Below, piece by piece: positions 13,780 through 37,641 of a stretch of 41,814 nucleotides of DNA. How positions within the stretch are numbered: position 1 is the stretch's first letter; every line of letters starts with the position of its first letter. The notes beneath the pieces were generated by a model. That model ran no database searches. It was not told the DNA's origin and saw nothing but the letters and a program-made list of their open reading frames with translations. Both the position numbers and the translations under genes were made by a program. This DNA comes from Clostridia bacterium (GTDB lineage: Bacteria; Bacillota; Clostridia; Oscillospirales; Oscillospiraceae). The stretch is taken from NCBI GenBank assembly GCA_024404825.1, contig JAKSPM010000002.1, positions 1 to 41,814 on the forward strand. The letters run 5' to 3'.

Positions 13780-15180
13780 TTAATTCTTTTCCTGCGGCTT
13801 ACCTGCGAGCTTGCCGCCTGCGTAGCCTGCCACAATGGATGCCAGGTCGATACCGGTCGATTCCTTCATCCCGTCGATGATCTGATTTGCACCGTTCATG
13901 ACGTCCTTGATGAGCCTCGTGGAGTTGCCGTCACCGTACATGACGATCTTGTCGGTCTTGGCAAGAGGCTCGGCGGCGTTCTTCACCACATCGGGAAGAG
14001 CGGTCAGATACATCTCAAGGATGGAGGCTTCACCCATCTTCTTCTGGGCTTCGGCTTTCTTCTCAATGGCTTCCGCTTCCGCCAAACCCTTGGCACGGAT
14101 ACCTTCGGCCTCCTGCTCCATCGCGTAGCGCATGGCTTCGGCCTCTGCCTTCTTTGCCTCGGCCTGCTTGACGGCCTCATAGGCCTTTGCCTCCGCGTCC
14201 CTCTGGCGGCGGATCAGCTCTGCTTCGGCTTCCTTTTCGGCCTTATACTTCATTGCATCTGCCTGCTTACGTACCTCTGCGTCCAGCTGACGCTCCTTGA
14301 GGGCGATTTCCTTTTCGGCAAGCTCTGCTTCCTTTTCACGCCTTGCAATGTCTGCATTCGTGCGCGTGACCTCAACGGTCTTACGCTGTGCCTCCTGCTG
14401 GATAGAGTAGGCGGCGTCTGCCTCTGCACGCTTGGAGTCGGCCTTGACCTTCATCTCGGCCTGCTGCACAGCCAGTGCGGCATCCTGCTCCGCCATCAGC
14501 TTCTCGGCCTGCACCTTGACGGCGTTGGCCTCCTGCTGGGCGTTGGAGGTTGCAATGGCAATGTCTCTCTGCGCATTTGCCTTTGCGATCTGTGCATTCT
14601 TGCGGATCTGCTCCACGTTGTCGATACCCATGTTCTCAATGGTGCCGGCACCGTCCTTGAAATTCTGAATATTGAAGTTCACGACCTCAATACCGAGCTT
14701 GCGCATATCAGGAACGACGTTTTCGGTGATCTTGCGGGCAACGCCCTGTCTGTCCTGCACCATTTCCTTCAGTCCGACGGAGCCGACGATCTCACGCATG
14801 TTACCTTCGAGCACCTGTGTGACAAGCGTTACAAGCTCCTGCGGCTTCTTTCCGAGCAGGGATTCGGCGGCAAGCTTCAGAAGCTCCGGGTCGGAGCTGA
14901 TCTTAACGTTTGCAACACCGTCAACGGTCACGTTGATAAATTCGTTCGTGGGGACTGCCTCGCTGGTCTTCACGTCAACCTGCATGACCCGCAGGGAAAG
15001 CTTGTCAACACGTTCAAAGAATGGAACATGCCAGCCGGCTTTACCGATCAGGATACGCTTCTTCCCGAGGCCGGAGATGATGTACGCGGTGTCAGGAGGC
15101 GCTTTAAGATAACCGCAGGCAATCAGGATGATTGCAAGCACGCCGAGGATGGGGCCTAATACGAACCAAATGTTTTCCAT
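13780..15180 (-). CDS. Flotillin-like SPFH-domain membrane protein
   Basis: A 466-residue flotillin/YuaG-type protein that in this family forms oligomeric scaffolds in membrane microdomains. It has an N-terminal membrane segment (about residues 4-25), an SPFH/band-7 domain (about 30-200, including DVKTSEAVPTNEFINVTVDGVANVKI) and a long coiled coil rich in Glu-Ala and Lys-Ala (about 205-400). The C-terminus holds the flotillin YLTALPDVVKNAAEPLAK segment and a Gly-rich end. ATG 15180 was chosen for its AAAGGAGAG site. An in-frame ATG ten codons earlier has none. Its leader contains a manganese-type riboswitch with a terminator, an uncommon partner for a flotillin. Confidence 0.93.
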   Translation of the reverse strand: MENIWFVLGPILGVLAIILIACGYLKAPPDTAYIISGLGKKRILIGKAGWHVPFFERVDKLSLRVMQVDVKTSEAVPTNEFINVTVDGVANVKISSDPELLKLAAESLLGKKPQELVTLVTQVLEGNMREIVGSVGLKEMVQDRQGVARKITENVVPDMRKLGIEVVNFNIQNFKDGAGTIENMGIDNVEQIRKNAQIAKANAQRDIAIATSNAQQEANAVKVQAEKLMAEQDAALAVQQAEMKVKADSKRAEADAAYSIQQEAQRKTVEVTRTNADIARREKEAELAEKEIALKERQLDAEVRKQADAMKYKAEKEAEAELIRRQRDAEAKAYEAVKQAEAKKAEAEAMRYAMEQEAEGIRAKGLAEAEAIEKKAEAQKKMGEASILEMYLTALPDVVKNAAEPLAKTDKIVMYGDGNSTRLIKDVMNGANQIIDGMKESTGIDLASIVAGYAGGKLAGKPQEKN

Positions 15181-15234
15181 GATACTTTCTCTCCTTTTCT
15201 GAAATGACAATGGTTGATTGACTCAAAAGGAAAT

Positions 15235-15357
15235 AAAAAAGAGACTTTTATCGAATTCGGTAAAAGTCTCGTAAATCCTGTAGGATTCTGCACACCCGGG
15301 GCAAAGCCCGTGATGACGGTTGTGCAGCCGGATTGCTCCGGAACTACTCCCTTTTGA
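15235..15357 (-). promoter_or_regulatory. yybP-ykoY (manganese) riboswitch with intrinsic terminator
   Basis: Transcribed from the minus strand, the leader starts with AAAAGGGAGUAG (15344-15355), contains CCGUCAUCACGG and ends in CGAGACUUUU (15262-15271). These are the conserved loop and core segments of the yybP-ykoY class. Between them are a CCGGA-GCAA-UCCGG hairpin, a CUGCACA/UGUGCAG stem enclosing the CCGUCA arm, and an AAUCC/GGAUU hairpin. The closing strand GAGACUUUUA can instead pair with UAAAAGUCUC (15241-15250) to form a 10-bp terminator followed by six U. The family senses Mn2+ and usually turns expression on by blocking the terminator. That logic fits here, by inference. The flotillin ATG is 55 bases downstream. 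Confidence 0.82.
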
Positions 15358-15364
15358 TGGCTAG

Positions 15365-15393
15365 AGTATAGCACGCAGGTTTCGGATTTGCAA
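15365..15393 (-). promoter_or_regulatory. Flotillin/riboswitch promoter
   Basis: On the minus strand TTGCAA, a 17-base spacer and TATACT. The predicted start, near 15358, falls exactly at the first bases of the riboswitch. Confidence 0.75.
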
Positions 15394-37415: not shown

Positions 37416-37641
37416 AAAAACAAAAACTCCGCCCCTTGGTTAGGGGCGGAGGAAATCCGCGGTACCACCCTAATTGCCCTATACAGGGCATCTTAGCCGC
37501 TCTGTAACGGGAGCACCCGTCCTGCTTTCACAGGCTGCTTGGAAGTGGCTGAAAAAACTGCCCCTGCGGACTTTCACCTGCCGTCCGCTCTCTGAAAAGG
37601 CGCAAATTTTTCTCGTTTCCGCATTGCGTTTAGACGATTCG
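37416..37641 (-). promoter_or_regulatory. T-box riboswitch (alanine type)
   Basis: A tRNA-sensing leader. The invariant T-box AGGGTGGTACCGCGG is read on the minus strand at 37457-37471. Its UGGU can pair with the ACCA end of tRNA-Ala. Upstream are the AGAGAG element of Stem I (37588-37593), a candidate specifier GCC (Ala, 37547-37549) and a TGCCCT/AGGGCA hairpin just before the antiterminator. Downstream, CTCCGCCCCT/AGGGGCGGAG (37427-37451) with TTTTTGTTTTTG is the terminator. Uncharged tRNA-Ala should favour read-through. Alanine identity rests on the specifier and on downstream alaS. Confidence 0.93.

Follow-up and report, generated by a model that had tools for sequence, protein, structure and literature searches.

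The monocistronic flotillin gene located on the minus strand of the window, by which we mean the whole 41.8-kb stretch of DNA analyzed here, is probably controlled by a transcriptional ON switch that is a divergent representative of the yybP-ykoY (Mn2+) riboswitch class. The Mn2+ riboswitch occurs very widely, and most of the targets known for it are transporters. The purpose of bacterial flotillins is debated, and the riboswitch link offers a testable role for them. No flotillin- or stomatin-linked yybP riboswitch was found in the open-access literature searched, although the gene lists of Dambach 2015 and Price 2015 may mention one; flotillin is thus a target class unreported for the Mn-type riboswitch in that literature.

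Architecture of the flotillin leader

On the minus strand, a promoter, an aptamer, and a terminator lie in series before flotillin. The promoter is of the sigma-70 type (TTGCAA-17 nt-TATACT with an extended TG, 15365–15393) and matches the consensus at 9 of 12 positions, and a promoter-like sequence stands at the equivalent place in other flotillin leaders (20 leaders inspected). The Mn-type, yybP-ykoY-like aptamer (15260–15359) was delimited by two covariance models (R1 and R2, below) and by the minimum free energy (MFE) fold. Its switch helix P1.1 has the 5′ strand AAAAG (15351–15355), which pairs with CUUUU at 15266–15262 and covaries with it. The adjoining L1 5′ strand GGAGUA (15345–15350), which is nearly invariant among 53 aligned leaders, holds the equivalent of the Mn-contacting G9. 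The P2 hairpin CCGG..CCGG (15328–15341) and the P3 stem, composed of P3.1 and P3.2 (15288–15327), are covarying helices, and P3 encloses the L3 loop UCAUCAC (15310–15316) with the equivalents of the Mn2+-coordinating U39, C40, A41 ... C45 (PMC9190785). The P4 hairpin AAUCC-UACA-GGAUU (15274–15287) comes from the MFE fold. The strand CGAGAC (15266–15271), which is also nearly invariant across leaders, comprises the 3′ end of P1.2, the L1 3′ strand, and the first base of the P1.1 3′ strand. Two further stretches, GGGAGUAG (15351–15344) and CCGUCAUCAC (15319–15310), are aptamer hallmarks.

Folded alone and de novo, the aptamer forms a four-way junction with P1.1, P1.2, P2, P3.1/P3.2, and P4, and the same unguided fold contains the L1 internal loop and the 7-nt L3. 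The P1–P4 four-way junction with L1 and L3 that characterizes the class is therefore seen in the window MFE fold, in the consensus, and in the covariation.

Downstream, the intrinsic terminator hairpin GAGACUUUUACCGAAUUCGAUAAAAGUCUC (15241–15270; −13.7 kcal/mol, z −4.9) overlaps the P1.1 3′ strand and is followed by a T-run, read from the sequence (15235–15240); the flotillin ATG at 15183 lies ∼52 bases past this run. The strand that closes the aptamer is thus reused by the terminator, another feature of the class. When the whole leader was folded with the downstream hairpin, the terminator displaced P1.1 (−49.3 kcal/mol, z −4.6), and none of 200 shuffles was as stable. A terminator hairpin starting in the P1.1 3′ strand is present in all 52 flotillin leaders. 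The original prediction of a promoter, aptamer motifs, and a mutually exclusive terminator at these positions was correct, with the minus strand as the coding strand.

The presence of both a terminator and an antiterminator would also suit an attenuator without ion control, in which the choice between P1.1 and the terminator is set by how fast RNA polymerase moves, by NusA, or by a protein; NusA can favor P1.1 independently of Mn2+ in Lactococcus lactis (PMC11087558). However, L1 and L3, which would be superfluous for a pure attenuator, are among the most conserved parts of the RNA, and ion transporters make up the overwhelming majority of the target genes across Clostridia. We consider this explanation very improbable.

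Membership in the yybP-ykoY class

R1 was trained on 47 leaders, none of which precedes flotillin. Most stand before genes for cation transporters: the training genes encode P-type ATPases, CitMHS/ArsB-like carriers, Na+/Ca2+ exchangers, and Na/Pi and CNNM proteins, as well as oxaloacetate decarboxylase (OAD) beta subunits and an AI-2E-like membrane protein. In the window, R1 found the flotillin leader as its sole match (61.3 bits, E = 3.4e-12). The same leader was again the sole match in the whole genome (1.45 Mb, 96% complete), making flotillin the only detectable target. R1 also recovered RF00080-positive leaders and that of Escherichia coli mntP. R2 was trained on only 11 RF00080-matching leaders, which belong to same-family MntP, GDT1, and P-type ATPase genes and to the validated E. 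coli mntP. Its sole match in the window was likewise the flotillin leader (56.5 bits, E = 3.9e-12), a score whose independence from R1 is qualified by the use of R1 to make the R2 training alignment. Every other SPFH leader tried was also found by R2. The recovery of the window leader by R2 therefore ties it to bona fide Mn-type riboswitches.

The original prediction had expected a significant RF00080 score, and this expectation failed: RF00080 gave no match to the leader at the gathering score or up to E = 10, and none across the whole genome at E = 1. The failed test is a weak one, because the validated E. coli mntP leader (L042, 862–958) is itself sub-threshold, scoring 41.6 against the 45-bit gathering score in the RF00080 copy used here, and because R2 finds the window leader. 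The mntP score further implies that the RF00080 family is under-annotated. In 101 same-family genomes, RF00080 gave 11 weak matches, none above threshold, whereas a simple class descriptor was found in 100 of 300 genomes, and the reversed pattern only in a handful; this initial descriptor required GTCA in L3 and so was biased, the covariance-model surveys less so. Together with the sub-threshold mntP score, these counts establish that RF00080 is insensitive in the lineage of the window genome, and it overlooks a large Clostridia branch of the riboswitch class. Class membership is accordingly based on the fold, the contact nucleotides, and R2 rather than on RF00080 itself.

Covariation was scored on an alignment of 53 leaders (52 flotillin leaders and one further match in L218). 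Two-sided changes occur at 18 of 21 pairs, and 94.8% of the cells are paired; the covariation score was 0.684, as against 0.185 for shuffles and 0.06 to 0.13 for slid controls. The missing RF00080 match is what might be expected of short motifs assembled by chance and without function, but two blind models at E of about 1e-12, strong covariation, and leaders before 51 flotillin orthologues refute this explanation, to which we give a negligible probability. The same three lines of evidence back the assignment to the Mn-type aptamer class that had been made from the sequence.

A scan of the leader with all of Rfam returned nothing relevant; matches to snR40 and to microRNA models were attributed to chance. 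Elsewhere in the window, a T-box leader lies on the minus strand (37439–37633; RF00230, 101 bits). In another locus, L034, an above-threshold molybdenum-cofactor riboswitch match adjoins, in opposite orientation, the RF00080-like leader of an MntP-like gene (1186–1330 and 1501–1654).

Flotillin and other genes downstream of the RNA

The window flotillin (13780–15183, minus strand) is a 467-aa protein with an SPFH/Band 7 and a Flot domain (PF01145, E = 3.9e-25; PF15975, E = 5e-7). Both matches are above the cut-offs, and the domain order is that of flotillins, SPFH followed by the flotillin repeat region. The protein matches the structures of human flotillin-1 and -2 at E of about 1e-50, its match to NCBIfam FloT is partial and below the cut-off, and its closest named relatives are from Oscillospiraceae.

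Flotillin orthologues were sought in GTDB representative genomes, and the 80 best loci were retained. An R1 match lies upstream on the same strand in 51 of the 77 testable orthologues, 68 to 318 nt before the aligned protein start, and is absent from the other 26; the denominator is 77 because three of the 29 RNA-less loci have too little upstream sequence. About 0.01 matches would be expected from the background density. Two flotillins from other genera, the nearest among those found at first (83–85% identical), carry this leader too, with stems that differ in sequence. No leader was found before orthologues at ∼50% identity (L004–L007). On the flotillin tree, presence of the RNA needs nine changes, compared with about 25 when labels are shuffled, and the window flotillin falls in a supported clade in which 13 of 14 members bear the RNA. 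These linkages, the blind models, and the covariation uphold flotillin as the target. Flotillin is mostly monocistronic, and its neighbors are not conserved. We rejected the idea that it is a passenger in a transporter operon, since, of the 50 flotillins for which a downstream ORF was clear, just 4 have it nearby and on the same strand.

Other genes stand under the same RNA. At the family level, the descriptor matched before genes for P-type ATPases (39), CitMHS-like carriers (21), flotillin (9), Na+/Ca2+ exchangers (8, and 2 more on second look), Na/Pi proteins (8), OAD beta subunits (7), and a second, HflK-like SPFH family (5). Class-wide, R1 matched in 180 of 391 genomes. The 83 class-wide leaders that were classified include 34 before Na+/Ca2+ exchangers, 22 before OAD beta subunits, and 21 before P-type ATPases; a single leader (L277) stands before a protein that is SPFH-like by its sequence. 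The order to which the window genome belongs contains an SPFH gene with the leader in another family (L027). Besides flotillin orthologues, at least three SPFH lineages thus carry the RNA, and since further SPFH/Band 7 proteins, in other families too, stand behind it, the link is broader and extends to SPFH scaffolds. The HflK-like SPFH/Band 7 proteins with the RNA are ∼300 aa long and were seen in L085, L115, L122, L124, and L128 and in L027 (RNA at 1401–1495) and L277 (1804–1901).

Several isolated arrangements were also observed. In L315 and L318, the RNA stands, unexpectedly, before secreted proteins whose N-termini resemble those of pectate lyases (AFPGAEGGGMYTTGARG). Copies of the RNA occur in tandem in L317 (101–195 and 245–335), and two copies lie 1.15 kb apart in L253 (1501–1599 and 2653–2748). 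L120 (293–397) holds a near-copy of the leader that stands before flotillin in the same genome (L119). Behind this near-copy lies an uncharacterized 209-aa protein, which has no NCBIfam match and is followed by an ABC-2-like membrane protein.

Ligand, proposed mechanism, and relation to known systems

In the L. lactis structure, Mn2+ is held by the phosphates of G9, U39, C40, U44, and C45 and by N7 of A41 (PMC9190785). All six contact positions are present in the window RNA. G9, U39, C40, A41 (A15314 in the window), and C45 have the same base, and position 44, where the contact is made by a phosphate, is A and not U. A41 is kept in all 93 class-wide matches and in 47 of 52 flotillin leaders, that of the window included. 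The remaining five flotillin leaders have U at this position (CGACUAAAC, CGACUAUAC, or CGACUAUCC; L195 2573–2683, L200 2709–2824, L214 13–125, L215 2613–2723, and L230 2652–2760), which requires two changes on the flotillin tree, on two branches. In L. lactis, A41U abolishes the stabilizing effect of Mn2+ (PMC9190785), and the natural variants differ at the very atom to which Mn2+ selectivity is attributed. Part of the branch may therefore have changed its ligand.

It is unlikely, in our estimation, that the ligand of this yybP-type aptamer has shifted altogether to another cation (Ca2+, Mg2+, Na+, or other) to which flotillin would then respond. Such a shift would agree with the natural A41U leaders and with a target set that includes CaCA Na+/Ca2+ exchangers, PMR1-like P-type ATPases, OAD beta Na+ pumps, and Na/Pi and CNNM proteins; many of these targets (OAD beta, Na/Pi, CitMHS) are annotated as Na+-linked and are not known Mn exporters, and yybP variants with altered divalent specificity were expected by Sherlock and Breaker 2020 (PMC7266159). 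However, A41 is retained in the window, and the models that find its leader also recognize those of the dedicated Mn exporters MntP and GDT1. Moreover, RF00080-matching leaders and R1-type leaders share P-type ATPases and CaCA exchangers among their targets. The established Na+ class, RF03071, has another motif, of 55 positions, for which neither the leader (up to E = 10) nor the genome (at E ≤ 0.1) gave a match. Because of the kept contact positions, the shared ATPase and exchanger targets, and the recovery of MntP and GDT1 leaders by R1, Mn2+ is the most economical ligand and is the one we propose, from sequence comparison, for the window RNA. A more speculative reading, which we regard as possible but unlikely, is that SPFH-linked yybP-type RNAs are being re-tuned, most sensing Mn2+ and the natural A41U subset another cation. 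If so, metal-ion riboswitches with differing specificities would directly control how flotillin scaffolds the membrane.

For the Mn2+-responsive ON switch, the following course of events may be proposed. The transcript would begin just upstream of the aptamer. At high Mn2+, L1 and L3 would dock around Mg2+ and Mn2+, and this docking would stabilize P1.1 (AAAAG/CUUUU), keep the GAGACUUUU strand from the terminator, and allow flotillin to be transcribed. At low Mn2+, the terminator would form. The ON sign is expected by analogy with L. lactis, in which an ON mechanism through P1.1 is established: Mn2+ stabilizes P1.1 and blocks the terminator (PMC11087558).

Flotillin would probably organize or protect membrane machinery under Mn2+ load, such as transporters, secretion complexes, or quality-control complexes. 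In Bacillus subtilis, the TerC-family proteins MeeF and MeeY, along with proteins of secretion and quality control, copurify with FloT and FloA (PMC10550928). The earlier suggestion of a scaffolded transporter thus gains indirect support from B. subtilis but none from the gene neighborhood, where flotillin usually stands alone. As MntP and TerC genes were not found in the window genome and flotillin is its only detectable target of the RNA, its role under Mn2+ load may lie in membrane protein quality and not in the service of one specific exporter. The RNA stands before flotillin in many gut bacteria, which suggests that they adjust their membrane scaffold to the level of manganese. Flotillin as a conserved, monocistronic target, together with the further SPFH families, would join metal sensing directly to the organization of membrane microdomains.

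Among known systems, the Na+ riboswitch (DUF1646 motif, RF03071) is also found before genes for oxaloacetate decarboxylase and for cation transporters (PMC9337991) but is a two-stem motif with no match in the window leader or the genome. B. subtilis FloA and FloT share the SPFH and flotillin domains of the window flotillin; however, the window flotillin stands alone, and FloA and FloT have no record of riboswitch control in the open-access literature searched. The closest counterparts are the RF00080 yybP-ykoY riboswitches of L. lactis yoaB and E. coli mntP. In contrast to these, the window leader lies below RF00080 detection, its target is a membrane scaffold rather than a transporter or TerC protein, and some of its sister leaders carry A41U. 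What it shares with them is the four-way junction, the L1 strand GGAGUA, the GAGAC junction strand, an L3 with UCA...C, and a P1.1 switch helix held in common with the terminator.
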